Source: Cephalotus follicularis (taxonomy: Eukaryota > Streptophyta > Magnoliopsida > Oxalidales > Cephalotaceae). From it: DNA of 64,000 bases. The stretch covers positions 173,227 to 237,226 of the forward strand of contig BDDD01002264.1 of the NCBI GenBank assembly GCA_001972305.1. The letters are read 5' to 3'. Under the pieces are notes generated by a model. The model ran no database searches and was not told the origin of the DNA. It worked only from the letters and a program-made list of their open reading frames with translations. Positions 260-64,000 of the stretch are shown piece by piece (the stretch's first letter is position 1; the number at the start of each line of letters is the position of its first letter). The position numbers and the translations under genes are program-made.

Positions 260-475
260 CAGTCGGCTATTTTTCCATAACAGTTGGCTGGATCCTTGAG
301 GTAGTCGACTGTTCCTTCCCAACAGTCGGCTTGTTCATCATGAGCATTCGGCAGTCGACTGCCTTCCTTCGACAGTCGACTGTCCTGGGTAAAGAGGCAT
401 GCACAATCGACTGTTCTCACATGACAGTCGACTGGATGTTGGAGTAGTCGAATGTTTTACTTAAACAGTCGGCTG
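260..475. repeat. Phased palindrome array, CAGTCGACTG type (LTR A, distal)
   Basis: Sites start near 260, 281, 302, 323, 352, 373, 403, 425, 445 and 466. Steps are 21, 21, 21, 29, 21, 30, 22, 20 and 21 bp. Sequence between sites is not repeated. Variants are CAGTCGGCTG and CAGTTGGCTG. Confidence 0.92.
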
Positions 476-1303
476 TTCTGGGATGTACAGTGCCAGCAAT
501 TCACTGCTAATCCATTCTACAAACCATTGGAACGTATCCACACGTATTCAAACCTCATAATATCATCAGTAATCATACACTGGTTTAAAACACTACTCAA
601 TTCATGCATTATTCTCTGTTTTCATCATAATTCAAATGACATCCAAGCATGGCATTGCATGAAAACCAACCAAAACTCCATCCAAAACTCAATGTGCATG
701 TTAGGTTATTTATTAACATTAACCACAACATTAACACAGAAATCCACAACCAAACAACTATACCATTCATTTATAACCTCATTACCCTTAACTTAAAATG
801 CATGCATAGAATTCTCTACTTTTCCCCTACCTTTGATTTCAAGTTAGAAATAGGAAGTCCACCTCTTTATGTCTCTTTTCCAGTGTCTTTGAACCTCCCA
901 GTAGCTCCAAGGACAGTCCAGTAGGTTCCAACCGAGCTCCAAGCTTGACGATGAGGAATCCTCTCAATTCTCACTATTCCCTCTCTCAAATTCTCACTGT
1001 TTCTCTCTCAATTTCTCTGGTTCTTTCTTATCCGATTGCAGGGTGAGAGAGACAAAGGGAAGGAAGCATTTATGCAGTCTTCTCCCATCAGCCCATTTTT
1101 TGCATGGCACCTTGAGCATTCTCTCACATTTACACTTGCGTGCACACACACTTTTCATTCTTTCTCTTCCTTTCTGTCCTTGCAGGTTCTGGCGTGGTGG
1201 TGCATGTTCAACACGTTTTATTTATCATTAGATGGCGCCTACAAGATGCTTCATCAGTGGCTGCATGTGATCTCATCACATGCAAATGAAACAGAGCACG
1301 ATC

Positions 1304-1455
1304 CAGTCGGCTGCCTTTCCTTGGCAGTCGGCTATTCGCCTGGCAGTCTGTTGCCATGTGTCACGACAATTGGCCAGTCGACTGGTTCATCCCACCAGTC
1401 GACTGCTTCCACACGCAGCCATCCAGTCGGCTGGTCTCCTGTGCCAGTCGACTGC
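1304..1455. repeat. Phased palindrome array, CAGTCGACTG type (LTR A, proximal)
   Basis: Sites near 1304, 1325, 1344, 1375, 1396, 1424 and 1445. Steps are about 21, 19, 31, 21, 28 and 21. The partner array in the other LTR is at 6903-7055, where one site reads CAGTCAACTG in place of CAGTCGACTG. Confidence 0.92.
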
Positions 1456-1653
1456 CTCCAGTAAACTTACCAAGTAATTATGCTTCTAAGTACATAATTG
1501 ACTTAATATTGACATCATCAGTTACGGAGAAAACCATCATTTTATTAATCCCACAAATAAAGTACATTTACATTGCGAAATTACAATATGTGAAAATTTC
1601 GGGCGTTACAATCACCCCTCCTTCAAAGAAATTCGTCCTCGAATTTACATATA

Positions 1654-6212: not shown

Positions 6213-6307
6213 TTGTTCCTATTAGAAGGATGACGGTTAGTCACGACTTTAGGAAACAATTTATTGATTTCCAAGGAAAGTATCCTAGCTAAGCATATAT
6301 GGAATAT

Positions 6308-6319
6308 GCTCTGATACCA
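6308..6319 (-). promoter_or_regulatory. Primer binding site of element A (tRNA-iMet type)
   Basis: On the minus strand this reads TGGTATCAGAGC, the usual complement of the 3' end of plant initiator tRNA-Met. It starts three bases inside the 5' LTR end (TGTGACA, ending at 6323). This fixes the orientation of element A and the inner LTR boundary. Confidence 0.9.
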
Positions 6320-6322
6320 CGT

Positions 6323-7205
6323 TGTCACACCCCATTTTTCCAAAGAGACAACATATAAAGCGGTAAGGCAATCAACATATTACCCTTAACTTAAAATGCA
6401 TGCATAGAATTCTCTACTTTTCCCCTACCTTTGATTTCAAGTTAGAAATAGGAAGTCCACCTCTTTATGTCTCCTTTCTAGTGTCTTTGAGCCTCCCAGT
6501 AGCTCCAAGGACAGTCCAGTAGGTTCCAACTGAGCTCCAACCTTGACGATGAGGAATCCTCTCAATTCTCACTATTCCCTCTCTCAAATTCTCACTGTTT
6601 CTCTCTCAATTTCTTTGGTTCTTTCTTATCCGATTGTAGGGTGAGAGAGACAAAGGGAAGGAAGCATTTATGCAGTCTTCTCCCATCAGCCCATTTTTTG
6701 CGTGGCACCTTGAGCATTCTCTCACATTTACACTTGCATGCACACACACTTGTCATTCTTTCTCTTCCTTTCTGTCCTTGCAGGTTCTGGCATGGTGGTG
6801 CATGTTCAACACGTTTTATTTATCATCAGATGGTGCCTGCAAGATGCTTTATGAGTGGCTGCATGTGATCTCATCACATGAAAATGAAACAGAGCACGAT
6901 CCAGTCAGTTGCCTTTCCTTGGCAGTCGGCTGTCCGCCTCGCAGTCTCTTGCCAAGTGTCACGACAATTGGCCAGTCGACTGGTTCATCCCACCAGTCAA
7001 CTGCTTCCACACGCAGCCATCCAGTCGGCTGGTCTTCTGTGCCAGTCGACTGCCTCCAGTAAACTTACTAAGTAATTACGCATCTAAGTACATAATTGAC
7101 TTAATATCGAAATCATCAATTACGGAGAAAACCATCATTTTATTAATCCCACAAATAAAGTACATTTACATTGTGAAATTACAATATGTGAAAATTTTGG
7201 GCGTT
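6323..7205 (-). mobile_element. Element A, 5' LTR (short copy)
   Basis: The inner end is TGTCACACCCC at 6323 on the plus strand (GGGGTGTGACA on the minus). The outer part matches 1-1610 closely up to GGGCGTT at 7205. It is much shorter than the other LTRs of this type (about 2.8 kb). The palindrome array at 6903-7055 matches the array at 1304-1455. The outer end abuts pol sequence of element B on the opposite strand without a visible target duplication. Confidence 0.82.
6903..7055. repeat. Phased palindrome array (LTR A, 5' copy)
   Basis: Counterpart of 1304-1455, with the same spacing and several CG to TG/CA differences. Confidence 0.9.
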
Positions 7206-8910: not shown

Positions 8911-9083
8911 TGTAACGCCCGGTATTTTCGTTTTGTAATATTTCGTCCTAAGATGTAATCTTATGTTGAATTAATTAAAATGTTGGAGATTTAGACCTCA
9001 ATAATTCTTCCAAACCCTAATTATTGTTTTGGGAAAGGAAATGTGCTTGATAAACCAAAAACGGTGCAGTTTTGGGAAAATGC

Positions 9084-9235
9084 GTCAATGTCTTTGGAAA
9101 GACGTCGACGCCTATGGAAGCAAAGGCACACGTGAATGCATGTGTACATGCACGTCGATGTAGGCAAAGGCATCGACCGTCACGTATAAAAAGGGGAAAA
9201 GCCATCGACGTCTATATAAAGACATCGACGTCTTG
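9084..9235. repeat. Phased palindrome array, GACGTCGACGTC type (LTR B, proximal)
   Basis: Sites of the form AAGACGTCGACGCC or AAGACATCGACGTC in the first 330 bp of LTR B. The first two cores (9084, 9104) are 20 bp apart. Same arm type as in LTR D. Confidence 0.85.
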
Positions 9236-10097: not shown

Positions 10098-10534
10098 CCT
10101 TGGGACGTGGATGATACGTGTTGAGCATGCTAGCATGATACCAGGCATGCAGGTGCTAGATTGGAAGGAAGGGCATGACACGTGGGTATGCATGCAGGCT
10201 GTGTGCCACCTTCAATGCCTGCTCCTGCAAAAGAAGTGAGGCAAAACTGGGAAAGAGAAAAGAATTGGAAATGGAGCCTGTGAGATGCATGCAACAGGCC
10301 AGAGAGGGAAGAGGGATGTGAGACCTGCATAAAACGCCTCCTCTCTTCATCCCCGGTTCGGCAAAACACCAGTGTAAGAAAACAGAGAGTGAAAGAGGGC
10401 CATTGTTGAGCTTGATTGGAGCTAGGGACTTGGAGCTCGTGGATAGCAGTTGCTGGGAGGATCTTGGAGCTGCTGTGGCCAGAGTCTTAGAACACAAAGA
10501 GGTGGACTTTCCAGTTCCTAACTTGGAACAACAA

Positions 10535-12154
10535 GGTAGGGGAAAGTGATAATCTTATACATGCATTTTGGGTTTTAAGTTAGTGAATAACATGATGGAT
10601 TGCATGTTAGTGGTTGAATTGTGAATCTGGTCTTGTTGTGATGACTACTATGATGTACGGAGTTAACATGCATGTATAAATTACATGAATATTGAACTGG
10701 GTTGTGTATGGATGATTTTGATAATGGCTTGCTGTGTTAAAACTATGGAGAAAATGTTATGGGTTGGATAAACATCGACGTCTATCCATAGACGTCGATG
10801 TCTTCGTGTACGTATGAAAAAGACATCGATGTTTGAGTAAAAGCATCGACGCCTTTTTTGGGAAATCATAGAATTGTAATGTTTACGGCAGATGGTGAAT
10901 TAGCCAGTTGGGATTACATGTTTGATTAAGAATTGATGTTCTGGTTACATATCCTGAAAACCAGTAGCTTTTCTTGCACCTCGAGAGGGTGAGTTTTGCT
11001 TATATGGGGATTTAGGGGCTGGATTCTTCCCTCCAGAATCCAGACTCGCGAACTGATACCTCCTGGTATCATAAAGACATCGATGTCTTTGGAAAGACAT
11101 CGATGTCTTTGGTCCAAAAACGCCTAGGAATAACTGTACATGGGATTGACGCCTTAGGGTAAAGACGTCGACGTCCTGGGGATAGACATCGACGCCTATC
11201 CCTCTGATCAATGGAATTTCACTCGAATGGGACCCGCTAGTCCCAAAACGACTCTAGAACGATCCTAGATGCATTCTGAGCATATGTTTGCATTATTACT
11301 GTGATTTTCATTATGGTTGATTTCTAAAAAGTGTTAACCATTTCGAAAAGCTTGCATGATTATTATAATCATTTTTGTACGAAAATGTATATTTGTCAAT
11401 ATATGATTTTATATATTTTCGAAATGACTAGAGAAGTATTTCCAAAGATGGAGGAATGTTTTAAAGGATTGATTATGCAATCAAATGTATTGTGCGAAAA
11501 TGTATATTTGTCAACATATGAATTTATATATTTTCGAAATGATTGGGGAAGTATTTCCAAAGACGGAGAAATGTTTTAAAAGATTTATTATACAATCAAA
11601 TGTATTGTTTTAAGTTTTATAACTTATCAACACTTGTGAACGGAGTAATATATATTTTAAACAAATATATGTGATCAAGTAATCATATTTTATTGCTTGA
11701 CTTGTACTGTGCAATGCTTGTGCCTGTTGATTATTAGTCACTGTGCTAATAACCTGTTGATTACTCAGCCACTGTGCTGGTAACCTGTTGTTGGTTTAGC
11801 CGCCGTGCTAAACAACATACGGAGGACTTGCTCCAAGCCGTTCACAAACGGGGATGGGGTAAGAGTGCATGACGTTGGGGCCAGGAGGTGGCGACGGTTA
11901 TGACGACTTGCTTGTCTGGTTCCTTTAGGACATATTTGCTGCTTGTGTTGATATAACTTATGAGGTTATACCTGTGCTGTGAACATGCATATATTTTATA
12001 TGTATATAAGGAGATAAAATTACTATGAAAATTACATGTCATGCTGCATCATAATGCATTCATTCATGATATTCATTATCATATGACTCGAACTGTATTT
12101 ATAAGTTTGTTCACTTAGCCGAGTGAGGACAAAGGCTAACCCCTACTGTAACAG
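10535..12154 (+). promoter_or_regulatory. Putative LTR intron (LTR B)
   Basis: Donor-like CAAG|GTAGGG at 10535. Branch-like GGCTAAC ending at 12140, then CCCTACTGTAACAG|ATTGAT with AG at 12153-12154. The same pair of boxes is found in most LTRs of the window. Splicing is inferred, not shown. Confidence 0.45.
10765..11205. repeat. Palindrome arrays, GACGTCGACGTC type (LTR B, distal)
   Basis: Two groups, 10769-10860 and 11088-11205, of ACATCGACGTC, AGACGTCGATGTC and ACATCGATGTC sites. Most adjacent sites are about 20 bp apart. They lie downstream of the donor-like box at 10535. Confidence 0.85.
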
Positions 12155-20413: not shown

Positions 20414-23157
20414 TGTAATACCCTGTTTGTCCGTACTTTTCTTCTTTTTCTTTTCGGTCTTCTAATCAGTATGTTAAGTAATCCGTCTTCTTCATTCTGA
20501 TTTATGTGATAATATACTCTTAAAGTTGGGTTATGTGTTATGGGCTGACTGATACCAGCCTTGGTTATTGGGTATGTTAGTATGTGTATGTGTATTGGTA
20601 AGAGTTTTGTTTGTTTTATTTTAAATAAATCAGTTTTTATATAAAGACTTTTAATTAAAACCAAATCCTTGTATTTATTTATTTTATCTTTTCTCTCTCC
20701 CTCTTTTATCCCTCCCATTTTTCTCTCCCTCTCATGACCCCCTTCCCTGAATCTCTCCCTCTTTCCTTCTTCTTCTCCTAAAAATCTTCCTCTTTCCTTA
20801 TCTAATCGGATTATGTCTCCCTTTTTCCTTATCTTGGCCGAAATCCCCTCTCCTTTTCTGTTTAAGTATAGAGACAACCACGCCACTTTGTCATCCGTAT
20901 CTCTATCGTTTGCTGAAACCGATTCTGCAAATTGGAATTCATTTTGTTCTGGTGCAAGTGTCCTCATCAAATCAGGTTTGGTTATTCATATTTCGGTTTA
21001 AGCACTGTGTTGTTTGCTATGTATAACAATGACAATTTTATAATCCGTGTGTCCTCCCCCTTGTTTTCCTCCTTGGACAGCCTTTGGACACCTTTGATTT
21101 TGGTGTTTCTGCAACTGTTTTTGGCATCCTTCAGGTTTGTTTCCTCTGTAATATTGTCTTAGTAATTGATTTTGGTCTTATGTCAATCAAATTTTATTGT
21201 CATTTAGGTTGTCAAAGGTTATTGGTTTTGATTCCTACAATTCTAAGGTCTGTCATGGTTCTGAATCTGTCAGCATGTATTAGGTATCTAGAAAGAATTG
21301 TGTAATTTAGTTTTGATAAATGATAATGGTATTTGAAAGAAATTGGATTATGTATAAGCATGTAATGGTTTAACTTCATCACTCACTTTAAGTTGGTCAT
21401 TGTTGAGTATTTCTCTTAAAGTTAGTGTTCTAAAATTGTTTTATACACCTTATAGAGTCTCTTTTACTTAGTTATGACCCTCTTGTATTGAGAAATTCAT
21501 GTGTTGACAGAAAATTCCATAGAATTTTCACACTTCTATTTTTCTGTCGCCCAGGGCAGTCGGCCGCGTATATGAACCGTCGACTGTTTTGTCTTGAGTA
21601 GTCGGCTGCCTTGTGAGTCAGTCCACTGTTTTGTCTTGCACAGTCGACTGGACCCCTGTCACAGTCGACTGGTTGCAGTCCTGTTTGTGTAGTCAGCTTC
21701 CTATTCTGTACAGTTGACTGCCACCCTTTGAACAGTCGACTGGAGTCTTGGAACAGTCGGCTGGATTGTCCAGTAATATTCTATTTTCAAGTTTCCCTTA
21801 TCCGTTTGTCCTTCCGATGAATTGGGGTCTGTTTTAAACACCGCTATAATTATGATTTATGCCACAATGATTTTCAGATCCTTATATGAATGTTTTTTTT
21901 ATATATTATATAGACTATTGTGCTACGTGGGACAGTTAGAATTTATCGGTATATTCATAAGTTATTCTGTGAGCGCATAAGACACGGATATATCTCTTCT
22001 TGGACATCTGATTTATTTGAAATAAATTCATCTTTATGAATATGTCCCTTTCGGTTTATGAACTATGTTATGGTTTTATTATGTTTTGGAAATAAAGTCA
22101 CTTGATATTTTATGAGATAAATAATTATGACTTTATAAACTCAGCTATGATATGTTTATGAAATGTTATGAAATCATCTCCTTAATTGTGAAACTAAGTG
22201 ACTTGATTTTCCGATTATGAAAGGATGTAATTATATCATTTGATAACGATTTATGAATACGTTTTGGAAAACCATTCCTTATGTGTTTTAAATTGACTAT
22301 GATAAAATCAATATTTTCAAAATGGTGAAATACTGAGTTTTTGTACCCACCTATGGAGCGTACCATAGGCATGTCGTAGGCCTGGCATGGGGACATGACA
22401 CTTCTGTAGTGGTGTGATCTATCTACGGCATCCCTCTATGTTTATGATATCCTTGGAAAGGATTTGTGATGGGGGCGTATGGATCGATCCTAGTTATATG
22501 ATATGTGATATGTGATATGATATGAGAATTGATTGTGTAGTGCCGTACACTTCATTTCTATTTGGCAATGTGGATATCGCGAATCCCCTTGCTTCTATGT
22601 GTTTCTGATATGTGATATGTAATGATGATCAGTTATGGAACCTTATGTTTTGAAAATGTATGCTTATGTTTTTGAAAGTTATGGATTTGGTTTATACGAA
22701 AATGCCGAGGCAATTTGTAAAGAATGTTTAAACTTATTGTTGCTTAAGATTTCTGTTTTGAATGAACTTTTGAAATCTTACTGCTGTTAAAATTATCGTT
22801 TACTATTTTTACATTTTATATTCGTACTGAGGTTTGCTCAACCGCGTTTTTGTTTCTATGCGGCAGGTTATCAGGAGCAAAGGGGCAATTTGTGATGAGA
22901 GGAGTCTCACTTATGTCTGAGGATTATCTAGGAGTTGATCCTATTATGTTTATGTTATTTGATGGTCTTGTTAGGACCTGCTTATGAATAATTTTATATG
23001 TTTCAGATTATGAATTTTTTTGATTTGTGTTAAGTTTTCAGAATATGTTATTTTTAGCTTATGTTCTGACTATCACGCTTTTCGTTTTATGAATAAGATA
23101 TTCTGTTAAGTTCTGTATTATGACCTGTAAGGGCTCCCACCTCTCAGGGGTGTTACA
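20414..23157 (+). mobile_element. Element H, 3' LTR
   Basis: Opens TGTAATACCCTG and closes GGGGTGTTACA; 2744 bp. It contains a pyrimidine-rich leader-like part (20680-20800), one palindrome array (21557-21762) starting 1143 bp from the LTR start, and an acceptor-like GCGGCAG|GTTATC near 22863. Its layout matches the G LTRs and the minus LTR J. Right of 23157 the sequence switches at once to RT of element F on the other strand. Confidence 0.87.
21557..21762. repeat. Phased palindrome array, CAGTCGACTG type (LTR H)
   Basis: Sites near 21557, 21577, 21599, 21619, 21641, 21662, 21690, 21711, 21733 and 21753. Steps are 20, 22, 20, 22, 21, 28, 21, 22 and 20 bp, one of the clearest examples of the phase. 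Confidence 0.93.
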
Positions 23158-23810: not shown

Positions 23811-26082
23811 TGTAATACCCTGTTCGTTCGTAAATGTAATTGTTACGGATTCGTAAATATGTTTTACGAATTTTATATGTGTTTTCGGGCTTTTAATTTT
23901 GTTAATTTTAAAAGTCCGGTTGCCCTACGATTTGGGTTTATGTGAATTGTGCGGTATGATACCGGTCCGAAATTTGGGTATGTTATGCTATGTTGGGTTT
24001 TATAAATTCTTATTTTAATCCAAAAACTTATTTTATTAAAAACAAATTATTATTCTTTTATTTTAATATTCCTTAATTCTTTTTATTATTATTCTTTTAT
24101 TTTTAAAATCCATAATTCCTTTTCTATTATTCCTTTAATTTCCTTTTTCTTATTTTAGCATTTTCTACCATTTCTTCCTACTTCCTTCCACCATCTTCCT
24201 CCTTTTCAGCAAATCCCACTATCAATTCACATGTTAATCCTTCCTTTTCCTATTCCATAATCCAGAAAAGTTCCCCCTTTCTTCCCTATTGTAAAATCTT
24301 GTCTCCCCCTTTCTTCATTATTGAGTGCCATTGCCATTTTTATATGATGCCACCATCCTTATTGCAGACCAATCCGAATCAGCCTTGTTTGTGTGACATA
24401 ATCTGCTGTGTAAATCATTCTTCAAAGTTCAAGAGGTAATCTCAATCCTTTAATTGTTTACTTGGATTAAATTCTCTTAGTTTGCTATGTATGTATAAAA
24501 ATACCATGGATTTGTATTCTTCTTTCTTTGTTTCTGTTCACAGCCAGATTGTGTGTCTGTGTTTGTGTTCTTCCTACTGTTTTCTGGGTTCCTTAACATC
24601 ATTAAAGGTCAGTGAATTCATTCTCTTTAATTATATTTTTGTTTCAATGGCTTACTTTGAGTTTTTGTGCTCTTGGTATCTTGGAGTCTTTGATTCTTGC
24701 CTAAACATGTTGCCATTGTGTTAGTAATGTTATCTGCACGTTTTATGCACCTATATATGTCACAAACTAAGTTTATAACATCTGTATTTGATAAAACACA
24801 AAATCTGGACATGTTCATGCAATGTCTCCTTACTTCCTCTTTCAAGTTAAATCATTGAAAGGTTGTTTCTTTGTCAAATTTGTGTTTGTAAGTCACCTAC
24901 AAGTCATATATAATCATATGTTTATGTCCATATGTCTCTAGTTTAATGTAGAAATCATTTGAACCATTTTCAGTAGCAAATCGTCAGATTTCCAACTGTT
25001 CTGTCGCCCAAAACAGTCGACTGTTTGAGTGGACAGTCGACTGGAATCGTTGTGTAGTCGACTGGATTGAAGAACATAGTCGACTACCTGTATTTTTGGT
25101 TGAGTAGTTGACTGTTCACATGATCCAGTCGACTGCCAAGCCTCTCCAGTCGACTGGACCCCTGTTCTAGTTGACTGTTATGCCTTGGAATGTGCTGTTT
25201 TCAATTGTTTTGATTCGTTTGACCCCCGAATCGATCCGAATCTTTTCCAAACACTTTTATGAGTCTGTTTAATTCTTCTAATGTGTTTTAGACTCTTATA
25301 CATATGATTTTGAATGTCTTTATAGATTGTTGAGTTTCAAGTGAATTCCATTTAAAATTGTCTATTCGTAAGTACTTTGCAAGCGCATAAGGTACGAAAT
25401 TTCTGTTCCTTGGCTATCTGACATTCAAACTGAAACTGTTTTGATAAACATCTTCGTTTATGAAATCAACGATGTTTCATGATTTTGATACGCTTCAAAT
25501 TTAAAGTTGGTTTGACATTCTAATTGATTCCGACTTTATCTATACGATATGTTATGGTACGATATGTTATGATATGATATGTTATAATACTGTTGTGAGC
25601 AGTTTTTGAATATGTTGCGTGAAAACATATTTATGTGATTTAAGTTGATTTTGATAAATCAATTATTTTAAATTAAATACTGAGTATTGTACCCACCTAT
25701 GGGGCGTATCCATCCTTATCCGTACTGAGGTTTGCTCAGCCGCGTTTTTTGTTTCCATGCGGCAGGTTTTCTGGAGCAGCGGGGGAAAGTGTGATTGAGT
25801 GATGACCACCCTTTATGTTGGATCCTTAGGAGAGTGATCCCTATGTTATGCTTAGTGGTCTGAAACATTTGATTTTATGTTTTATGTTTTTAAATTGGAA
25901 CTGAATTATGTTTTGAGTTTTCCGCATCTACCAAATATGTTAAAATGTTGAGTTTTAATGTTTCGATAAGACTGCCACATTTTCGGCTGATCTTGGTTAA
26001 TAAAGCAAACTTTATGAGTTTGTTAAGTTATGATATGTATGATATGACCCTGTGACGACTCCCGCCGTCCGGGGGTGTTACA
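23811..26082 (+). mobile_element. Element G, 5' LTR
   Basis: TGTAATACCCTGTTCG to GGGGGTGTTACA, 2272 bp, shorter than the 3' copy (2716 bp). It holds a donor-like AAGAG|GTAATC near 24436, the palindrome array 25014-25177, and an acceptor-like GCGGCAG|GTTTTC near 25767. The primer site follows after six bases. Confidence 0.9.
25014..25177. repeat. Phased palindrome array, CAGTCGACTG type (G 5' LTR)
   Basis: Sites at 25014, 25034, 25055, 25077, 25105, 25126, 25147 and 25168. Steps are 20, 21, 22, 28, 21, 21 and 21. The sites at 25105 and 25168 read TAGTTGACTG where the 3' LTR has TAGTCGACTG. Confidence 0.94.
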
Positions 26083-37052: not shown

Positions 37053-38121
37053 TGTAACACTGCCGATTCGGGACCGGGATGTCACACCGAACTATCTTAC
37101 AAATTCACGACAAAATATCTAAATCTTTATTCAATTCATCAAATAAATATTTCGAAATATCAATTATTCTCAAGTCGAACTAATAACATAATAAGATGGG
37201 TTCAAATTTAAATATTGCTCAATATTAAACCAATCTCCAAAAGTCTACACATGACTACCGGAATTAACTAAAATAATTTAAAGCTATAAGCTAATCCTCT
37301 AAGATTTGTCGATCACTCATCACACTTGCCCCAGCTGTCCCTGATAACCTACCGCATGAAAAACAAAAACGTGGCTGAGCAAACCTCAGTACGGATATAG
37401 AATAGCAAAACATTTTACCAAAAAAGTAATACTGATAAATTGTGAAAACATTACAACTGATAAAACTGAAAAGCAACAATTTAATAGGGTTTGAAAGTCA
37501 TACATATACATATAGATTCACAAACTTTCATAAAGTAGATATGCGTTTTCATTCATATCAAATTCCAATATTTTCCAAACCAATGTTTCATACCGAGAGA
37601 TGCAATACTAACAGATCCCGTGTACGTGCCAAACCACTAGGAGATAACGTACCGGTACATACATATGCAAGGGATCCTGCAGAATCCATATGCCTAAAGG
37701 AAGGACGTGTATGGCACTAGACAATCAATCATCTAACTGTCACACCCCGTTTACAAAAACGCAGCATTAAAGCGGTAAGGGAAATTAACACAAACATACA
37801 GTTCATGTAAAACCATAAAATTTAAAACTTAAACCTTTAACAAGGTACAACAGTTGCGGAAGCACAAAACCATAAGCTGTAAACCGTAACGTGTGTCCCA
37901 TACCACACGCTACTCAAGAACAAGTCATCAAGCTAATCGCCCATAAAACGGAGCGTGAAAAACAATACAAGTTAAATTCTGTCAAGATCAAGATTATTAC
38001 AACAGTACAGCCGAGAACTATAACCAACATCGGTTTAAAGCAAAGCAGGAAAACGAGCAGAAACAAGATCATAACAACTTGATCATCCTTCATGTCGGTC
38101 CAACAGGTCCACGACCTCAAT

Positions 38122-39584
38122 CTGCAAAGTAGGGGGTTAGCCGTTGTCCTCACTTGGCTAAAGCATAACAGCAGTTCGGAATTAAAATCAATGCATGTCA
38201 TGATATGAATGCATAAATGATGCAGTACAGTGGGACCCATGTTTATACATATATAAAAATACGTATATCAGTAAAGTAAAATATCAGTGTTACATATATA
38301 AGAAATATATGTGTACAGTAATAGTACAGTAGTAACCCAGCCAGGGCTACGTCAACAACCACAGTAATGTCCGTGCAGGACCAACAAGCAGTACAGGATG
38401 TCCACATAGGACTACAACAGGCAGGATGTCCACATAGGACTACAACAGGCAGGATGTCCAAATAGGACTACAACAGGCAGTATGTGTAGCGACGCCAACT
38501 CCTGGCCCAAAGCTACACTCCCACTACGGCCCCTACATCAGGCAACAGAGCGAGGCAACAGGACAGTGAGTTACCCAGCCATACTCCTGGCCCCTAGGTC
38601 AACCCTCCACTAGTCGGCGCTGACAGTCTCCGCCATGCAACTAGTGGTTCAAGCACAAACACATAGCAATTCACAGAGCAAACAGTGAATTCAGGCAGTA
38701 CAGTACAGTAAACAGTAGTGATCGATTGATCCACAATAGTCAGGTTATTTCCAAAATGTTTCCGAAAGTGACACATTTGAAAATATACAGTTTCCATAGA
38801 AAATATCATAAATCAGTTTCAGTAGCGTAAATGTTTGCCAGTTCGGTCTAGAATATGTTTATTTAGTCAAAACGTATTTCACACTCAAACATCATATTCC
38901 GAGTTCCTATATGCATTTTTAAAGTAACAATACTTAGAAATCATAAACCAATTTCAAACAGTCAAGAACAGGCAGTAATACAGTACATATGCGATGCATA
39001 CAAATGCTCAAATGCACTCGAATAGGAATCGGGATCGTTTCATATCGTAAGGCGAAGAAAACCCCAAACAGCAGAAAAGACGTCGACGTCTTTCCGAATG
39101 TCGTCGATGTCATTTCTAACAGAAGTCGATGTCCAAGTCATAGAATCAGCGCGATTCACAGAAGAAGGCGTCGATGTCCAAAAATACGCGTCGACGTTCA
39201 AAGTCTGGGAACTCGAAACGACAGCGTACCGAGAATGGCATCGACGCACTAAGTTAGGGACCTTAGACATCGATGTGATTCATGCCCAAACCCAGGCAGG
39301 ATAGCAAAAGGCGTCGATGTCCAGAAATACGCGTCGACGTCTTTTAAACAGAAGTCGTCTTCTTCGTCGCGTCTCAACACACAGTAGCCATAACATCTCA
39401 TAAACATGCATAACCACAAGTAATCATGGCAAGAAACCAACATGAAGATACTTAGCTCATATCTAACATGTCATGGAATCAATCCAGTAACCAAAACAGT
39501 TCAAGAATCATGCATATTATACACCCAAAAATCATAGACTAAGCATGGATATTAACTTGAAATACAGTCATGGCTTTCCCCTAC
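38122..39584 (-). promoter_or_regulatory. Putative LTR intron (LTR D)
   Basis: Minus strand donor-like AAGAG|GTAGGGG at 39584. Branch-like GGCTAAC, then CCCCTACTTTGCAG|ATTG ending at 38122. The distal palindrome array lies inside. Confidence 0.48.
38395..38478. repeat. 28-bp tandem repeat, three units
   Basis: Unit AGGATGTCCACATAGGACTA plus eight more bases, at 38395, 38423 and 38451, with one base change in the third. The D-like fragment has two units (46429-46484). Confidence 0.95.
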
Positions 39585-40320
39585 CTCTTGTCCCACGTTA
39601 GGAACAGGAAAGTCCACCCCTTTTCGTTTCCAAACAGGTCACAGCAGCTCCAAGATTCTTCCCGTCGCTGCAAGCCACTAGCTCCCAAGCTTCCAAGCTC
39701 CAAGCAAGCTCAACAATGGTGGTCAAAGGAGGAAGTGTTTTCTCTCTTTACTTTCGGTTTCTTGACAGTCATAGCGTCTCTTTCAAGTGTTTGGTTCCTT
39801 CTCAAACAGTGGTAGCCAAAGGCAGGAGGTGGAGGCTGTCATTTATGTAACTCATCCTCCTTATTCTTCCATTTCATTTATGTTGCATGTCACATGTGCC
39901 TAGGTTCACTCCCACCTCTGCATGTAGCAGCAGGACCGTTTCTTCCATTCTTTCATGCCAGACAGTCACCCTATCCTTCTATCTACCCCATGCAAGCACA
40001 CATGTCCCATACCTCTTGTCTTTCTTGCATGTAACCTCACCAGCCACACTTGTCCACAAGGGTTCAGTTATGCAGGTTAGGAGTAGGGTGCATGCCCAAC
40101 ACGTCCTAACCCATGCATCAAGACACCTGCAAAAGACCCCCACTTGATACCCCCTTGCACGTTTTCTGTCAGAAGGTAACATGCAAGACATTCGAACTTA
40201 AGACGTCGACGTCTTTCCAAAGACGTCGATGTCTTTGGCCCGGATCGTGTGCATGCGCATGCAGTTACGTGAAACACTCTGTCAAAAAGGCATCGACGTG
40301 ATTCATAAAGGAGTCGACGT
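39080..40320. repeat. Two palindrome arrays, GACGTCGACGTC type (LTR D)
   Basis: Distal cores at 39082, 39103, 39125, 39170, 39190, 39240, 39269, 39313 and 39333, with steps near 21 or twice that in most cases. Proximal cores at 40205, 40225, 40292 and 40313. The partner in the D-like fragment is at 47086-47343. Confidence 0.9.
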
Positions 40321-40505
40321 CATTCCTCCAAGACAGTGTCGTTTTAGCCCTTTATACATTCCTTGGACATTTAACACCAACGCTTCAAAATAAGAAGGAT
40401 TGGAAAACATCACCAAATTCGAAAAATCCATCCTTTTATTAATTCCACAATTAAGAGTACAAATACTATGTGAAATAATAATACATGGAAATCTCGGGCG
40501 TTACA

Positions 40506-41024
40506 TCCACCCCACCTTCAAGGAATTTCGTCCTCGAAATTACAGCAAGTCTAAAACAAATGTGGGTAGCGTTCTCGGACATCCTCCTCACGCTCCCAAG
40601 TTGCTTCATCTGGTCGATGGAACTGCCATTGCACCCTGACCATGGGAATGGTTCGGTTTCTCAAGGTCTACGTCTTCCAGTCAAGAATCCGCACGGGCAA
40701 TTCCTCACAGGACAGGTCATCTTGCACCGGAACAGTATCAAAATCCAGGACATGTGGCGGGTCCGAAATATATCTCCTCAACATAGATATGTGAAAGACG
40801 TCGTGCACGTTTGACAGTGCAGGAGGTAAGGCGAGCTGGTAAGCTACCTCACCGACTCTCTCTAAAATCTCAAAGGGACCAATGTAGCGCGGAGCTAATT
40901 TGCCCTTCTTTCCGAACATTTGCACGCCCTTCCATGGTGAGACCTTCAAGAAAACATGATCGCCCACAACGAAGGTTAAAGGACTCCTCTTGACACTGTC
41001 CGTATAGCTCTTCTGCCGACTCTG
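40506..41024 (-). pseudogene. Element D integrase C-terminal remnant
   Basis: Minus strand GDHVFLKVSPWKGVQMFGKKG, LAPRYIGPFEILERVGEVAY, DVFHISMLRRYISDP, SCEELPVRILDWKT and the chromodomain-like end. The complement of 40506-40520 is the polypurine tract. It stops at the unknown base 41025. Fossil. Confidence 0.85.
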
Positions 41025-41025
41025 N
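41025..41025. other. Assembly gap: single N
   Basis: The only ambiguous base in the window. The 211 bases that follow it (41026-41236) repeat 40295-40505 with about two differences. A single N at a repeat boundary usually marks a scaffold join of unknown true length. Confidence 0.95.
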
Positions 41026-41562
41026 GACGTGATTCATAAAGGAGTCGACGTCATTCCTCCAAGACAGTGTCGTTTTAGCCCTTTATACATTCCTTGGACA
41101 TTTAACACCAAAGCTTCAAAATAAGAAGGATTGGAAAACATCACCAAATTCGGAAAATCCATCCTTTTATTAATTCCACAATTAAGAGTACAAATACTAT
41201 GTGAAATAATAATACATGGAAATCTCGGGCGTTACACTAACCCACCAAACATATATCCTAGGGCCAACCCATACACCTCTTATCATACAAATATCACACT
41301 CAAGTGAAAAACATAATTGTATCCAAATCCTCTTCATAGGATTATCAAAAAGAGACGCCGTGGACTAATCACACTGCCACAGATAGTGTTTGTAATAACC
41401 GTAAATTTCAATTAATGTATATTATACCATTAAAAATAAAATATGCATTTAATTGAGATTTAATGTCCAAGTGTCATGTTTTTATGGTTGTTGTCTTTTT
41501 TTGTGAGTTTTAAATGCAAGACTTGAGTTAAAGTGTGTTGTGGCATGAATAGTAGGGAGAAA

Positions 41563-42500
41563 CTGGCCGACTTTTAGCAAAAGCAGCCGACTGGGGATTT
41601 TTGTACAGAACACAGCCGACTGTCCCAGGGGAACAGTCGACTGGTTGGTTCATACAGGATCCAGCCGACAGTAACATGGGAACAGTCGACTGGGTGGTTT
41701 AAACGGTGGCAGTCGACTGCCAGTTAAAATAGTTGACTGGAGGCACTATGACAGGTGCTCTGCTACGTGTTCATAGGAGGAATCAAACTGTCCTTCACTT
41801 GGACAGGTGTTATATGAATGATCAGGGCATGAACGTGTCATCTAATGGAAAAACGTGGCACCAGCTACTGAAGTGGTGTCCTAAGTCAGTAACCTGCAGA
41901 AGGAAACAAACAGAAAAAAAATCAGAGACAATGAGTTTAGAGAGAGAGAGGAAGAAAAGAAGTGGAGTTAACTTGGAATAGAAGCTGGGAATTTCTTTTG
42001 GTAAGCTTCTGTTGTTGAATTCCAGTTACTGTTATGGTTGTTCAATAGTATATACGTGCTGATTTCGTGTATATATACCCACTGTTTAATGCACACGTAG
42101 ACTATTGTTGGTTGTTGAAGTGTTGGTTGAAAGTGAAGAGTTGGAACTTAAAGAGAGGAATCATTTCAACTGATTCTAGGATAGCTTTTGAGGTAGGTAG
42201 AAGGAATTTATGGCATGATTTTGATATATATAGCATGCTTTTCGTGTTATGGTAGCTTTTACCTGTTTGCATGATGTTTGAATTTGAATTGGAGGTTGTT
42301 TTATGCATACCTTGTTTCTGCTGAAAACGAACATGGGCTTGGACAGCCAACTGTCTCGAGTGGCCATCGAATGCTTAATGTAAACAGTCGACTGTTTGGA
42401 ACAAACAGCTAACTGCTCACTGAATCCAGCTGGCTATTCATATAGAACAGCCGACTGTGCAAGATAACAGCCAACTGTGAAGGAAAACAGCCGACTGTTC
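41563..42500. repeat. Two palindrome arrays, CAGCCGACTG/CAGTCGACTG type (LTR K)
   Basis: Proximal sites near 41563, 41584, 41613, 41634, 41662, 41683, 41710 and 41730: steps alternate 21, 29, 21, 28, 21, 27 and 20. The distal array is at 42345-42500 with CAGCCGACTG and CAGCCAACTG forms. Confidence 0.9.
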
Positions 42501-45771: not shown

Positions 45772-47552
45772 TGTCACACCCCATTTACAAAAACGCAGCA
45801 TTAAAGCGGTAAGGGCAATTAACGGAAACATACAGTTCATGTAAAACCATAAAATTTAAAACTTAAACCTTTAACAAGGTACAACAGTTGCGGAAGCACA
45901 AAACCATAAGCTGTAAACCGTAACGTGTGTCCCATACCACACGCTACTCAAGAATAAGTCACCAAGCTAATCGCCCATAAAACGGAGCGTGAAAAACAAT
46001 ACAAGTTAAATTCTGTCAAGAACAAGATTATTACAACAATACAGCCGAGAACTATAACCAACATCGGTTTAAAGCAAAGCAGGAAAACGAGCAGAAACAA
46101 GATCATAACAACTTGATCATCCTTCATGTCGGTCCAACAGGTCCACGACCTCAATCTGCAAAGTAGGGGGTTAGCCGTTGTCCTCACTTGGCTAAAGCAT
46201 AACAGCAGTTCGGAATTAAAATCAATGCATGTCATGATATGAATGCATAAATGATGCAGTACAGTGGGACCCATGTTTATACATATATAAAAATGCGTAT
46301 ATCAGTACAGTAAAATATCAGTGTTACATATATAAGAAATATATGTGTACAGTAATAGTACAGTAGTAACCCGGCCAGGGCTACGTCAACAACCACAGTA
46401 ATGTCCGTGCAGGAACAACAAGCAGTACAGGATGTCCACATAGGACTAAAACAGGCAGGATGTCCACATAGGACTACAATAGGCAGTATGTGTAGCGTCG
46501 CCAACTCCTGGCCCCACGCTACACTCCCACTCCGGCCCCTACATCAGGCAACCGAGCGAGGCAACAGGACAGTGAGTTACCCAGCCATACTCCTGGCCCC
46601 TAGGTCAACCCTCCACTAATCGGCGCTGGCAGTCTCCGCCATCCAACTAGTGGTTCAAGCACAAACACATAGCAATTCATAGAGCAAACAGTGAATTCAG
46701 GCAGTACAGTACAGTAAACAGTAGTGATCGATTGATCCACAATAGTCAGGTTATTTCCAAAATGTTTCCGAAAGTGACACATTTGAAAATATACAATTTA
46801 CATAGAAAATATCATAAATCAGTTTCAGTAGCGTAAATGTTTGCCAGTTCGGTCTAGAATATGTTTATTTAGTCAAAACGTATTTCACACTCAAACATCA
46901 TATTCCGAGTTCCTATATGCATTTTTAAAGTAACAATACTTAGAAATCATAAACCAATTTCAAACAGTCAAGAACAGGCAGTAATACAGTACATATGCGA
47001 TGCATACAAATGCTCAAATGCACTCGAATAGGAATCGGGATCGTTTCATATCGTAAGGCGAAGAAAACCCCAAACAGCAGAAAAGACGTCGACGTCTTTC
47101 CGAATGACGTCGATGTCATTTCTAACAGAAGTCGATGTCCAAGTCATAGAATCAGCGCGATTCACAGAAGAAGGCGTCGATGTCCAAAAATACGCGTCGA
47201 CGTTCAAAGTCTGGGAACTCGAAACGACAGCGTACCGAGAATGGCGTCGACGCACTAAGTTAGGGACCTTAGACGTCGACGTGATTCATGCCCAAACCCA
47301 GGCAGGATAGCAAAAGGCGTCGATGTCCAAAAATACGCGTCGACGTCTTTTAAAAAGAAGTCGTCTTCTTCGTCGCGTCTCAACACACAGTAGCCATAAC
47401 ATCTCATAAACATGCATAACCACAAGTAATCATGGCAAGAAACCAACATGAAGATACTTAGCTCATATCTAACATGTCATGGCATCAATCCAGTAACCAA
47501 AACAGTTCAAGAATCATGCATATTATACACCCAAAAATCATAGACTAAGCAT
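45772..47552 (-). mobile_element. D-like fragment: partial 5' LTR
   Basis: Nearly identical to 37738-39548, including the acceptor-like box and the palindrome array (47086-47343). The 28-bp tandem repeat has two units here (46429-46484) against three in the other copy. It stops abruptly at about 47552, where LTR K resumes. Confidence 0.88.
46429..46484. repeat. 28-bp tandem repeat, two units
   Basis: Counterpart of 38395-38478 with one unit fewer and two base differences. Confidence 0.94.
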
Positions 47553-48053
47553 GTTGTAGTTTATTCATTCTTGCTAATGCCATGTATTATGGTTGAGTGG
47601 TTATGTTATTATTTGCTCAAATGCTTAAATCTTGAGTTACTGTTACTGATATTGATATGCAATTGTGTAATTGCTGCTATGCTAGTGTTATACAAGTGCA
47701 TATTCCTACTGTTTTGATCAAAGTATATACTAATACTATGGTATCAATGATTTTGCTCACTAAGTGACTTGTGCACAAAACTTAAAGGTTTTTGTTTTCA
47801 AAAGAAACCTGCAGATTAACTACTGGTTTTACCACTACTATTTACTATTATACTGTACTGTTTTCCTCTAAGTGAGGTACTGCTACCGTTTTACAAATGT
47901 TATTCTACTGTTTTATTGTTTCTAAAAGAAACTACTGCATATTACATATCATATATATATGTAATACTGTTATATTGTACTGTACTGTTTGTCTCTGCTA
48001 GTTCTGTAGTTGAGTGATAGGAGTCATCACTGACTACAACAGTGAGCCTACGT

Positions 48054-52302: not shown

Positions 52303-52490
52303 GCTAATATCCCTGTTTTGAGTAAAACTGTCATGTTTTGCTTAGATTTTCATTTTGATTGACATCAGGCTATGGTTTGAGCCTCCAATTATCGTCTAAG
52401 GCTGTCAAGCATCCTAGACTAGCCCAGAAGGCTGACCATAAGAAGGCAGACCTTCCGAAGTCCTATGTGAGACTTCAACTGTTGTGACAG

Positions 52491-52668
52491 TGATCGACCG
52501 ATTGAACCGAAATTTCCAAATGACCGATCGAATAAACCGAAATGGATAAGTGACCGACCGAATGAACCAAAATGGCTAAGTGACCGACCGAATGCACCAA
52601 AATGGATGAGTGACCGACTATGGATCAGAATGAATGAGTGATCGATCGAATAGGTCGAAAGGCACAAG
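52491..52668. repeat. 30-bp minisatellite, six units
   Basis: Units start at 52491, 52521, 52551, 52581, 52611 and 52639 (the fifth is 28 bp). Each opens TGACCGACCGAAT or a near variant. The unit start holds CCGACCGA/TCGATCGA, itself close to a palindrome. It ends 14 bp before element E. Confidence 0.95.
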
Positions 52669-59276: not shown

Positions 59277-59687
59277 TGTCACACACCGCTTCCGATATAC
59301 AACATTTAAGTGGTAACAATATGGAAATCAACATAATAATATTATCCGGCTTATGCAATTTTATGAATAAATTAAAAACGGAAGCATCATATGAATAAGT
59401 TGAATTAAACACGTATCACGCATCCCATACTACGTGATACTAATTTGTTCCGTAACAATTCTCAACATCATAGTCGATTGCCCTCAAACTGAGCGTGAGT
59501 AATAATATAAAACAGAATACAATACGATATCCGAATAAAATATCCTTCATCCATGATAAACATATTATCATGATTACAATAATCCCAAATACAATGAAGC
59601 ATTATCCGGGTACAAAATGTAAGAGAGGACATCTCAGTCTTCTCTTCAAGCCCAAGTGACCGCAACCATAAAACCAGTTGCATCAAT

Positions 59688-61260
59688 CTGAAATAGTAGG
59701 GGGTTAGCCTTTGTCCTCACTCGGCTAAGTAGTAGAGTTTATAAGTGCAATTCGGGATCAAATTTAATGCATGTCATGTAGTGTATGCAATCGTGAATGC
59801 AGTACATAGTATCACATAATAATACATATATATGTGTGTATATACATGTATAACTGCCAAATAGAGCAAACATGCCAATTGTCTACAATCCAACAATCCA
59901 ATATCAAAGCTATGAAGGCGCCGCCAACTCCTGGCCCAGACACTGTACTCCTCACTCCAGCCACCACTCTCCGGATGACTCGAAGCAGGTCACAATCCAA
60001 AGTCCCTGGCACGACGGCTGAGTGACAAAAACATGGGTTTCTCCTGCCAACTCCTGGACCCAAGTGTCTAACCCGCCTATTAGTGTCAGTGGCGACTCCG
60101 CCACCGCAACTAATACGACACAATCCAATCACAATCCAATTCAAGTCATTTATAAAAATAAATACTTGAAAACATATATATTTATCAATATATATAACAA
60201 TCCATTTTCCAAGTAAAATATGCATCATAAAATACTTGAAACAACATATTTGTCAAAATATGTAACAATCTTTTTTAAACTGTATGTTTATTCAAAACAT
60301 GCTTCAATCCATTTTCAAAATTGCATTTCAGTTTGAACATAGCAATTTATACAAAATAATGATTTAACAAATCATGTGTGCAACTCCATAAAAATGATAA
60401 TTCATTTTTGTAAAACAATAACAATCAATTTCAATGCACAATCCACAATTCATACCCAATACAATGCAAGTGCAATGCAATCATATGCTCAAATGTGCCT
60501 AGAGTCGTATCTAGAGTCGTTTCAGAGTTAACGGGTCCAATTCGGGTCAAACTATACAAACCAGGGGCATAAGTGTCGACGCTTATACTTTGGACGTCGA
60601 CGCTTATGTCCTCTAAGTGTCAACATTTTCTCATGAAGGCGTCGACTATTAAGGTAGGAACCTTAACACGGCATCGCTTCATGCATCAAAATTCTAAGTG
60701 CAGCAAGCCATAGGCATCGATGCTTTACCATAGCATCAACGGTTAAGTGATAACTGGCAATTATCACTTCAATCAGTCACTTCCCAAGGGAGAATTCATC
60801 CCCCAAACGTCGATACAATCCAAGATGTGTTCTATGCAGGTGTAACACGCACAACAGGTTATCATTCCATGTAACCAAAACACCAAACGATGAACTAGTC
60901 ATGAAAACCACAAGTGAGTATTACATGCAACCCATGACGAATAACATAGTTCTGCAGATATCCATATAAGGTGTCAATGTTTTCTTTAAGCGTCGACGTC
61001 TATTGCATTAACAGTCCAGAACAGCCATGTTCATCGTTCCAATTAAACCAGGGGAAACAATTCAATAAACATGCAAGTCCAGTTCGATTGTTCACTTAGA
61101 ATACACATGCATGGTTACTTTGTATATTATAGTAGCCATAACAACAATCCAACAATCCCAATTCATCCATATCAACATGAAATTCATGCTTTTCATCAAT
61201 GGAAATGCATCAACTTTAAACTCGAACATTGCATGTATAAGGTTCACAACTTTATCCTAC
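59688..61260 (-). promoter_or_regulatory. Putative LTR intron (LTR M)
   Basis: Minus strand donor-like AAAAG|GTAGGA at 61260. Branch-like GGCTAAC and CCCCTACTATTTCAG|ATTG ending at 59688. Confidence 0.45.
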
Positions 61261-61922
61261 CTTTTGTTCTAAGTTTGGAACTAGAAAGTCCACGTCTTTG
61301 CGTTCCAAATTCGGTCACAATAGCCTCCAAGATTTGTCCAGTGGCTGCACTGCTCAAAGCCCAAAAGTTCCAAGGTTCAACAATGGAGGTTTCTAATTTT
61401 TTTTCCTCCCTTGCCGGTTCTCACTGGTTTCTCTCCTTTCTCTTTTCACAAGTGTTTAGCAGAGAAAGAGGATGAAGAGGGGGTGTTTTATGCTGGTCAT
61501 ACATCTCTCTTCCTTCTCTGGCCCGTTCCATGCACCTCACAGGCTCCATTTCCCATTTTCTCTCTTTCCCAGTTTTTGTTCCTTTCTTTTCTTTTTGCAG
61601 GTGTAGGTGATGAAGGACACCTCTCCCCCTTGCATGCACTTACTGAGGACATGTGTTTGGTGAATGCCTGACATCTTGCCACATGTCTAACATGTTTCAA
61701 GTGCATGTGAAGGGGCCTGGAAGTGATCCCCAATTGCCCTTTGCACCACGTTTTCCCGTCAGTGTTTTAACATGTCTGAGATTCGACACTAAGCATCGAC
61801 GTTTAGATGCAGGTGTCGACGCTTATAGCGTTTTACCTAAAGGGCATCGACATCATCAACACGCATCGACGTGCATGTGCAAGTTGTTTGGCTTGTGTTA
61901 TATTGGCTTTGGCGTCGATGCT
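60575..61922. repeat. Two palindrome arrays, GCGTCGACGC type (LTR M)
   Basis: Distal group 60575-60735 (GTGTCGACGCTTAT, GACGTCGACGCTTA, GGCGTCGACTATT) plus two sites near 60970-61000. Proximal group 61785-61922 (GCATCGACGTTTAG, GTGTCGACGCTTAT, GCATCGACGTGC). Confidence 0.85.
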
Positions 61923-61924
61923 TT

Positions 61925-64000
61925 TGTAATAACCGCAATTTCAATTAATGTATATAGCTCCAATTTTAAATAAAATGTACATTTTAATTGATATTATATG
62001 TCCAATTATCATAGTAACTGCGGTTGTGAGTGCTTGGGTTGGTTGAAACAAAAATCGATTAATCAAACGTAAGAAACCCTAAAACCAGCTCAAACAGCCG
62101 ACTGTTACAGGGCAACAGTTGACTGTCTGATGAGTGATGTGACAGTCGACTGGAATGGTACAGAACAGGTGTCTGTGCATGCCTGTGTGACAGAATCAAA
62201 GGGAATGCATGATGGGCAGGTGTCATGTGAGACAACAGCTACCAGAACATGCAAAAAGGGATGCTTTGCATGTGCTCTGCAAACCTGCAGCCTGCAAATA
62301 GAAATGGGAAGAGAGAAGGGTGAGAAAGAGAGGCGCATGTGAGAGAGAGAAGGAAGGGAGAGAAGGCTGACTAATGGAGTCTGACGATTCCTAAGTTTTC
62401 TAAGCTTTATATCAGCTATGAAAGACTGATTTTGGTGATAGAAAACACTGAGGAGAAGGAATTGAAGGAGAGAAAGATTTTTCTTGGAGCTTGCATGTTA
62501 GGGTGTCCAAGGAGAGTGGAGCTTTGATTTTCCTGGTAAGTTCCCAAATCCGAACTCACTGCTAATGTGATAATGTAACTAGGAGGATCAAGAAAGTTGA
62601 GATTATAAACCTCTAATTAAATTATAGTTGTTGTTAGTTGTCAAGATATATGTATACTGATTCCATTACGTATTTGTATACATCTTCTGTCAACACGTTA
62701 TGATCAAAGAATCTGGAATTGAAAGATATTTGACAAGGAGTTCAAAGGGAAGTTGTAAAAGGGTAGTTTGAGGCTTAAGGAACTAGTAATAAGCTACTGT
62801 TGAAGTAGTAATTGTAACTGGATAATTAGTTAACTTACTGATTAAGTGACTGAACCTTCATGCATGCATGATATAGAATAATTCTACTGGAATTGAAGAT
62901 TGAGTTGGGGAAAGGACTTGGAACTCAAAGAGAGAAATCAATCCAAATTGATTTCGGGATAGCGTTTAAGGTAGGGGTAATGACATATTTTGGAAGATAT
63001 GAGTATGCATATCATGTATGGTTATTTTCTTCTTGATTGCATGCACTGATTTGATTTGTATTAGACAATTAAATATACAACCTGCTACTGCCTGCTATTT
63101 CTGGGCAAAGCAGTCGACTGTTCTTCATGACAGTCGACTACTCAAATAATCCAGTTGACTGTTAAGAACAAACAGTCGACTACTCAACCAAACAGCCGAC
63201 TGTTCTGGGTTAAAATTGTGATACAGGCCCTCATTAGGCCTTAATTTGAACGTAATGTCACCTGGCCTCAAATTGGATGACTGTGATAGTCAATCCTGAC
63301 CTTAAATAAATTACATTTCCGAATTTAAACAATGTGTATACTACTTGAGAGAATTACAAGGGTAACTAGAGTATACAACAAATTGATTGAACCTTGGATT
63401 ATTGCTGTGCTTATTGGTTGCTGCATATGCTACTGTTATAAGTAATGTATACTGTTCAGGGTGTTCATTAGCACTACTGTCCCCTATTTTCAAATGATTG
63501 AACCAACTAGTGCTTTAGGCACAAATATAAAATCCTTACGATTTTCAAAATAGAAATGTATATTGTCAAATGATTACTGATTTTCCTCCAATGAGAGGTA
63601 CTGTTACTGTACTGAATATCGTTTTCCTCCTATGAGATGTACGATCACTGAATTGTTATACGTTTCAAAAGAAAACAACCCTATATTACAGTTTAAAACT
63701 TATGTAATATTAATACTGAATTGATTGATTGTTTGTCTATGCTATTGCCGTTAGTCGAGTGATAGGAGACATCACTGGCTATGGAGGTGGTCCTATGTGC
63801 CAGGAGTTGGCTAGAGTATCCACCCAAACTGTCTGCAACGCAGATCTTGATTGTTAAACTGCCCGCTAATGCCGGTAGTAATTGACCTGATCTATCATCT
63901 CCTGAGTGAGGGGTGATAGATAGGTGGTGCACAGTTGGTGCTAGGAGTTAGCGGCATGTGACACCCAAACCATTGTAATAATTGACTGTACCCTTGTGCG
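61925..64000 (+). mobile_element. LTR P (partial, runs off window): TGTAATAACCG family
   Basis: TGTAATAACCGCAATTTC start, closely matching LTR K. Palindrome arrays are CAGTCGACTG type (62095-62152 and 63111-63202). Donor-like GTs lie at 62536 and 62971. Hairpin pair at 63799-63811 and 63940-63952. The right end is outside the window. Five bases before it (GCTTT) are a candidate target duplication. Confidence 0.8.
62095..63202. repeat. Two palindrome arrays, CAGTCGACTG type (LTR P)
   Basis: Proximal sites near 62095, 62116 and 62143. Distal sites near 63111, 63131, 63152, 63173 and 63193: steps 20, 21, 21 and 20. Confidence 0.9.

Follow-up and report, generated by a model that had tools for sequence, protein, structure and literature searches.

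Two classes of near-palindromic site arrays in Ty3/gypsy long terminal repeats of Cephalotus follicularis

Retrotransposons and site arrays of the window

A stretch of 64,000 nucleotides from Cephalotus follicularis (contig BDDD01002264.1, positions 173,227 to 237,226; here called the window) is a nest of long terminal repeat (LTR) retrotransposons. In these, near-palindromic sites of about 10 bp lie in arrays at corresponding places of homologous Ty3/gypsy LTRs, and their arms differ. There are two site classes, CAGYCGACTG (CA) and RCRTCGAYGY (RC), with the oriented core RYCGAC common to both. Matches to gag, RVP_2 (aspartyl protease), reverse transcriptase, integrase H2C2/rve or SH3_Tf2-1 were found in nine of ten open reading frame (ORF) pieces, the tenth matching nothing; rve was below its curated cut-off in both of its matches, and no chromodomain was among the matches of the ten pieces at E 0.001. 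The elements are Ty3/gypsy LTR retrotransposons with an SH3_Tf2-1-type integrase end, and LTR ends with TGGTATCAGAG-type primer-binding sites were located in the window.

An earlier note on this DNA had proposed that homologous LTRs carry different palindrome arms at the same positions. Its LTR letters, A to P, came without coordinates, and some of the assignments used here are those of the present analysis. LTR A (minus strand) has its start, TGTAACGCCCG, at 1610, recognized from a polypurine tract joined to the LTR start with minus-strand pol ORFs upstream; the end opposite this start was not located, and 111–1610 is the part compared. Its arrays, also on the minus strand, are of the CA class, the first at 1304–1454 (offsets from the LTR start of about 157–307) and the distal at 281–475 (offsets of about 1136–1342). 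Between them, at 835–852 (minus strand, position counted from its offset), is a covarying hairpin with loop CTAACTTG. The other LTR of element A has a damaged start; its stretch at 6379–7205 (minus strand) is 96 % identical to 781–1607, and it has a CA-class array at 6923–7052. LTR B (37738–40505, minus strand), identified by its termini and polypurine tract, is the 3′ LTR of an element with a minus-strand pol, and its arrays, at 40203–40299 (first) and 39080–39340 (distal), both on the minus strand, are RC. A third LTR starts at 8911 on the plus strand, with an RC first array at 9102–9231 and RC sites at 10772–11195 (offsets of about 1862–2285), which are assumed to belong to the same LTR.

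These three LTRs align before the first array, A being CA and the other two RC, which bears out the contrast originally drawn between homologous LTRs. The shared start and body reported for A and B is correct for the first ~100 bp, for the pol end and for a few stretches in which alignment resumes after the first array, including 821–946 with 39575–39692 (66 %). Most of the remaining body does not align, therefore "share body" was too strong. LTR D (45772–47553, minus strand), given as a second contrast with A, is likely the 5′ partner of B: it has 96.7 % identity to 37737–39547, with an adjoining primer-binding site, and the similarity to B stops at 47553; its RC array is at 47086–47346. B and D, about 97 % alike, are apparently the LTR pair of a single element and hence not independent.

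Two site classes, their spacing and their conservation

The window has 25 copies of CAGTCGACTG, four of GACGTCGACGTC and two of exact GCGTCGACGC, and neighbouring sites in the CAGTCGACTG clusters are often 20–22 bp apart. In 114 kb (the window and 50 kb from five places) there are 31 copies of CAGTCGACTG against 0.06 expected from base composition. Genome-wide counts, all of which cover the 1.58-Gb genome, gave 64,792 pairs of CAGTCGACTG with 4–34 bp between them (209 for the reversed-pattern control) and 3,843 forward and 3,839 reverse occurrences of GGDGGGGTGRNTGTAAYRCCC, a motif of the pol end plus LTR start (controls 8 and 3). The real LTRs, in which one copy is counted twice, contain 174 CA and 367 RC sites; letter-shuffled LTRs contain 0.2 and 0.85.

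The two classes hardly mix. Among neighbouring pairs of exact sites genome-wide, 64,792 are CA-CA, 6,356 in all are RC-RC and 4 are CA-RC (CA-AC 0; CA-GC 3+1), where about 11,600 CA-RC pairs would be expected under random mixing. Pairs of the RC subtypes are AC-AC in 269 cases, GC-GC in 4,803 and AC-GC in 618+666 = 1,284, the last against about 1,560 expected; both expectations are the arithmetic of this analysis, for exact sites only. Because AC-GC pairs are near random mixing and CA-RC pairs nearly nil, ACGTCGACGT and GCGTCGACGC are two variants within a single class. A difference of this AC and GC kind, as between the J and G/H described earlier, would therefore be no switch. A division into three arm classes was rejected on the same neighbour counts, and ACATCGATGT was rejected as a separate class, being found inside RC arrays.

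Class agreement within single LTRs was scored in a sample from 69 LTR starts: 27 of 30 loci that are near relatives of LTR B (L010, L015 and L022 gave no row); 35 from the first 100 GGDGGGGTGRNTGTAAYRCCC places in list order, the last two out of order and TGTAATACCC entries left out except one; two chosen relatives of LTR A (L087 and L088 are such relatives, matching along 111–1610); one from the 50 kb at five places; and four in the window. Three rows were dropped, L066 for an inserted element and L071 and L081 for LTR bodies that are not comparable, and L001 is the same copy as LTR B, leaving 65 distinct copies, with 3′ ends mostly outside the sequence read. For L060, L063 and L083 the CA call comes from the first array only. 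Both arrays are RC in 36 of the 65 and both CA in 16; a further 12 have sites in one array only, and one (L052) has none by strict patterns. The class agrees in 52 of the 52 LTRs with sites in both arrays, with none discordant (Fisher p 1e-13, which overstates the case because copies are related). Among the 38 copies that are not LTR B relatives, 12 are concordant RC and 16 concordant CA.

In 34 copies, with offsets counted from the LTR start, first-array sites begin at 143–321 and distal sites at 804–1,489. A conserved island with the covarying hairpin, present in 34 of 41 LTR bodies, starts at 581–905, and a TATA-like word lies 156–258 bp ahead of it in 22 of 23 cases. The hairpin, seen in LTR A and 33 other copies, has compensatory stem changes; cells of its inner pairs are paired in 133 of 136 cases (shuffled mean 115.4, highest 122). 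The window has no match in Rfam at gathering scores. It is likely from this layout that the first array is in the U3 (unique 3′) part, upstream of the TATA-like word; the distal array, because it lies beyond the hairpin, is probably in the transcribed part. Throughout the genome the first array was found at the CA-specific offset of 1,399+1,437 = 2,836 LTR starts (controls 2+0) and at the RC-specific offset of 4,426 (2,220+2,206; controls 2+1).

Spacing differs by class. In the 65 copies, 58 CA neighbour pairs have a spacing of 21 bp and 10 one of 20 bp, and among RC pairs 64 have 20 bp and 40 have 21 bp (24 and 6 without LTR B relatives), a difference with Fisher p 9e-10 when related copies are included and 7e-10 without LTR B relatives. 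The claim that position, core and phase are kept between classes thus holds for the common core and for the first array, which is at roughly the same place; for phase it holds only approximately, the spacing being mostly 20 against 21 bp.

The sites are also oriented. CA sites read on the sense strand are CAGCCGACTG in 102 cases, CAGTCGACTG in 64, CAGCCGGCTG in eight and CAGTCGGCTG in none, and orientation is uniform in all 19 CA LTRs having oriented sites. RC sites lean one way in 41 of 43 LTRs, the other two being ties, and 16 of the 43 are outside the LTR B relatives. Strand-biased decay was considered as a cause of the orientation of CA sites and was not supported, core changes being C to T in 11 cases and G to A in 15.

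For the conservation test, a single reference copy fixed the sites, which were then scored in the other copies, with slid masks as the control. Identity is 0.87–0.95 at sites and 0.62–0.80 in spacers, and over six alignments that partly overlap, every one of the 58 references has sites above spacers; slid masks reach the observed difference in 0–4 % of slides on average. Spacers within one CA LTR are little alike (0.36, shuffled 0.28), therefore CA arrays are unexplained by plain tandem duplication.

Helical spacing, site conservation and orientation together would suit a protein along duplex DNA. The palindromes might instead work at the RNA level, determining as dimerization or kissing signals which genomes are co-packaged; the 10-mers are self-complementary and able to pair between molecules, and the distal array is probably in the transcript. 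Such a role is highly improbable, given a spacing of 20–22 bp that fits duplex DNA, the frequency of imperfect palindromes (CAGCCGACTG makes up 102 of the 174 CA sites of the form CAGYCGRCTG), and a first array that, if in U3, would be only at the RNA 3′ end.

Class changes between LTRs

The proposal that arm type be mapped on trees from non-array sequence was followed, and a single CA clade was rejected. A tree from 46 rows and 387 columns (positions −250 to +130 outside the arrays), with five of the 27 LTR B relatives kept, LTR B itself in its window row (W_40505) left out and L071 counted as RC from one stray site, needs five changes for CA, at least three of them forced by starred branches; a single CA clade appears in 0 of 200 bootstrap trees. 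Without L066, L071, L081 and two long branches (L050 and W_29565), the 41-row tree (383 columns) has four CA changes, at least three forced, and one CA clade is rejected by the approximately unbiased (AU) test (p-AU 2.2e-6). Internal sequence only (250 columns) gives five changes, again at least three forced, and p-AU 4.0e-7. Array class thus does not track coding phylogeny, as represented by the last ~250 bp of the internal region. The three forced changes may be gains or losses. Recombination between the internal region and the LTR would yield the same changes in the tree; it belongs to an exchange of cassettes and is no objection to it. Two copies, L054 and L079, fall into different clades depending on whether the tree includes the LTR start, which adds to the signs of recombination close to the LTR border.

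Seven copies were scanned in windows for their best matches, and class changes in them coincide with sharp breaks in similarity at array modules. For the CA copies L076 and L063, the top match before offset 65 is an RC copy (85–97 %) in six of seven windows each, where CA copies reach 79–92 %; past offset 65, CA copies are the sole matches, or almost, through the first array. Further along, L076 is RC-like at 605, 650 and 695 and CA-like at 875–1325, with a BLAST match of 93 % to the RC copy L074 over 1409–1479, and L063 is RC-like at 560, 1100 and 1145. In the opposite direction, L053 (RC) has a CA-like window at −160. The RC copy L085 and the CA copy L083 have 79–94 % of the pol end in common and pair in the internal-sequence tree (support 94/73); their LTR bodies differ after offset ~65. 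The CA cassettes of LTR A (W_1610), L063, L076 and L083 are mutually ~70–86 % alike in longer matches. Of 431 sites in the 65 copies, one is half-switched; in the window and 50 kb, with both strands counted, it is one of 110.

The breaks and the near absence of half-switched sites point to cassette exchange, not arm-by-arm mutation. If arms had mutated in place, site by site, under a changing factor and with no recombination, the first array would be expected to keep roughly its position across classes, as it does. This is nonetheless very unlikely, as just one site in 431 is half-switched, spacing differs by class (p 9e-10, related copies included) and arms, spacers and flanks change together at sharp breaks. 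Of the two earlier readings, coordinated turnover and cassette exchange, exchange is thus the favoured one, the likeness of the CA cassettes also speaking for it; the form of turnover in which an element-encoded protein and its sites change together is not supported.

It is likely, at a probability of about 0.6 judged from sequence, that the LTR arrays are binding platforms for host factors and are exchanged by LTR recombination. Each platform would be multivalent, with a ~10-bp site mostly every two helical turns (20–22 bp), one array near the LTR start and one further on, in two mutually exclusive spellings around RYCGAC. A change of spelling would be a recombination in which an LTR of the other class donates array modules, template switching between co-packaged RNAs being the most likely route. 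Selection would keep each LTR to a single class, since one host DNA-binding factor would read both of its arrays; the two classes would then have two factors, or two states of one. As no further gene was seen in the elements examined, a host protein reading each class is possible, and is the preferred explanation. More tentatively, and rather doubtfully, two paralogous host proteins might read two incompatible codes in thousands of LTRs, with lineages hopping between codes via matched modules, mixed LTRs purged, and the code serving as a switchable identity for expression or escape from silencing.

The exchange could also have proceeded without any selection for purity, whole LTR bodies being swapped as blocks and arrays remaining pure by joint inheritance. 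L085 and L083, alike in the pol end and differing in body, are what this predicts, as are L054 and L079 with their movement between trees. It is considered unlikely, on account of the conservation of sites above spacers and of the RC-like windows between the CA arrays of L076, which indicate that breakpoints can arise inside LTRs and leave no discordant arrays; this last point is one clear case, and a thin one.

Several observations weigh against host-factor platforms kept pure by selection. Of the 36 concordant RC copies, 24 are closely related to LTR B, and concordance could come partly from inheritance of whole LTRs. L076 is the only copy of the seven scanned with a clear RC-like stretch between two CA arrays, and its window at 1370 has just a small RC-like lead (72 vs 65 bits); LTR A is not clearly RC-like before its array, and L053, an RC copy, has a CA-like window at 1235. 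The outer letters of RC sites are less conserved, in a test that is biased because slots were chosen by shared sites. RC spacers within one LTR are rather alike (0.48, shuffled 0.30), so duplication may have shared in making RC arrays. The TATA-like word (at 374–699 in 23 of 34 copies) was counted without a control. In the LTR starting at 20414, with a CA array at 21641–21763 (plus strand), the site at 21754 has the contrary orientation, which limits the orientation rule to the sampled LTR group. Finally, CpG decay in the RC core is uneven (13 and 3 on the two strands), therefore mutational bias may lie behind the orientation of RC sites.

The remaining arrays of the window add some further LTRs. 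The TGTAATACCC-type LTR at 23811–26082 (plus strand) has a single CA array at 25014–25156, and its partner at 29565–32280 (plus strand) has one at 30768–30931; of the window's LTR starts that were scored, the two of TGTAATACCC type have the distal CA array only, except that one of them also has a stray RC-like site near 2,329. With no strand assigned, two CA arrays are at 41584–41719 and 42344–42497 (within 41584–42497), RC sites are at 60594–61921, with flanks that resemble parts of 10209–11722, and CA sites are at 62095–62152 and 63111–63202 (within 62095–63202). The homology formerly proposed for K and P with E and F is plausible from alignments within the window, as the CA arrays at 41.6 and 63.1 kb have flanks similar to stretches near RC sites (66–74 % over 121–590 bp). 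A stretch of LTR B of ~222 bp, 40295–40516, is repeated at 41026–41246 (97.7 %); the second copy begins next to a lone N at 41025, and an assembly join may lie here. A 28-bp tandem repeat has 3.3 copies at 38394–38485 and 2.3 at 46428–46491, in the LTRs of one likely element, and a 30-bp tandem repeat has 4.3 copies at 52489–52618.

Candidate factors and comparison with known systems

Co-evolution encoded by the element itself, in which its own binding protein changes with the target array, has a precedent in the VANDAL transposons, where, in the available part of the report, dense short motifs that differ between related elements mark the targets of VANC (PMC5735166). It is quite unlikely here. 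The ten ORF pieces hold gag, protease, reverse transcriptase, integrase and SH3_Tf2-1 in nine and nothing in one, and gag-pol ORFs take up nearly all of the internal region in element A; among the elements of the window, no motif-binding domain was found in the ten pieces and element A has little spare room. In addition, L076 and L063 are CA although their pol ends, where compared, are 87–97 % like RC copies. The earlier interpretation is, overall, partly supported.

The CBF/DREB family, which binds the dehydration-responsive element (DRE) with the general core RCCGAC, offers a lead for a candidate factor. CAGCCGACTG contains GCCGACT, and GCCGAC is on the sense strand in 102 of 174 CA sites, those that read CAGCCGACTG; RC sites have RTCGAC instead. 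By analogy the family would fit at most the CA class well, because RC sites are without the RCCGAC core. A shift assay showed that MdCBF2 of apple binds GCCGACTT in redTE, a gypsy-like element (PMC6445120). redTE resembles the present elements in being gypsy-like and bound at GCCGACTT by a host factor, and differs in that one core element is named and no array is mentioned in the portion of the report seen (PMC6445120). Likewise, Rider LTRs have sites for host stress factors in U3, including dehydration-responsive elements and a CBF-type site; unlike here, no phased arrays are mentioned in the accessible text, and Rider is unaffected by cold (PMC6762207).

Two other systems are closer to the pattern of change. 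VANDAL elements, too, repeat a short motif many times in non-coding DNA, with differences between relatives and units changing together; they differ in having their own binding protein, the motif YAGTATTAY and arrays that change by tandem repeat formation, according to the sections available (PMC5735166). During bursts of Onsen, co-packaged RNAs recombine pairwise, also within LTRs, which provides a route for cassette exchange; this is within one family, and the excerpted report mentions no switch of site class (PMC5668417).

Titles of the literature matches listed for CAGTCGACTG indicate cloning or primer contexts. The Tnt1 group belongs to Ty1/copia, not Ty3/gypsy. Tnt1, Retrolyc1 and Retrosol of the Solanaceae share a conserved coding region and have differing, fast-evolving U3 modules, a modular evolution like that seen here; unlike here, neither a dense array of near-palindromes in two spellings nor a matching second array is mentioned in the part of the report available (PMC1838419). 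Modular U3 evolution is therefore already known (PMC1838419, as far as that part goes), whereas two exclusive codes in two matching LTR arrays were not found in print among the matches listed, which is not proof of novelty. What these arrays add to such systems is a countable record of the exchange of regulatory modules between retrotransposons, with two discrete codes that hardly mix and changes that can be mapped onto a tree. Should the sites be read by a protein, they would further provide tens of thousands of natural site pairs for studying how a genomic parasite tracks or evades host factors, and a way to ask why both arrays of an LTR agree.

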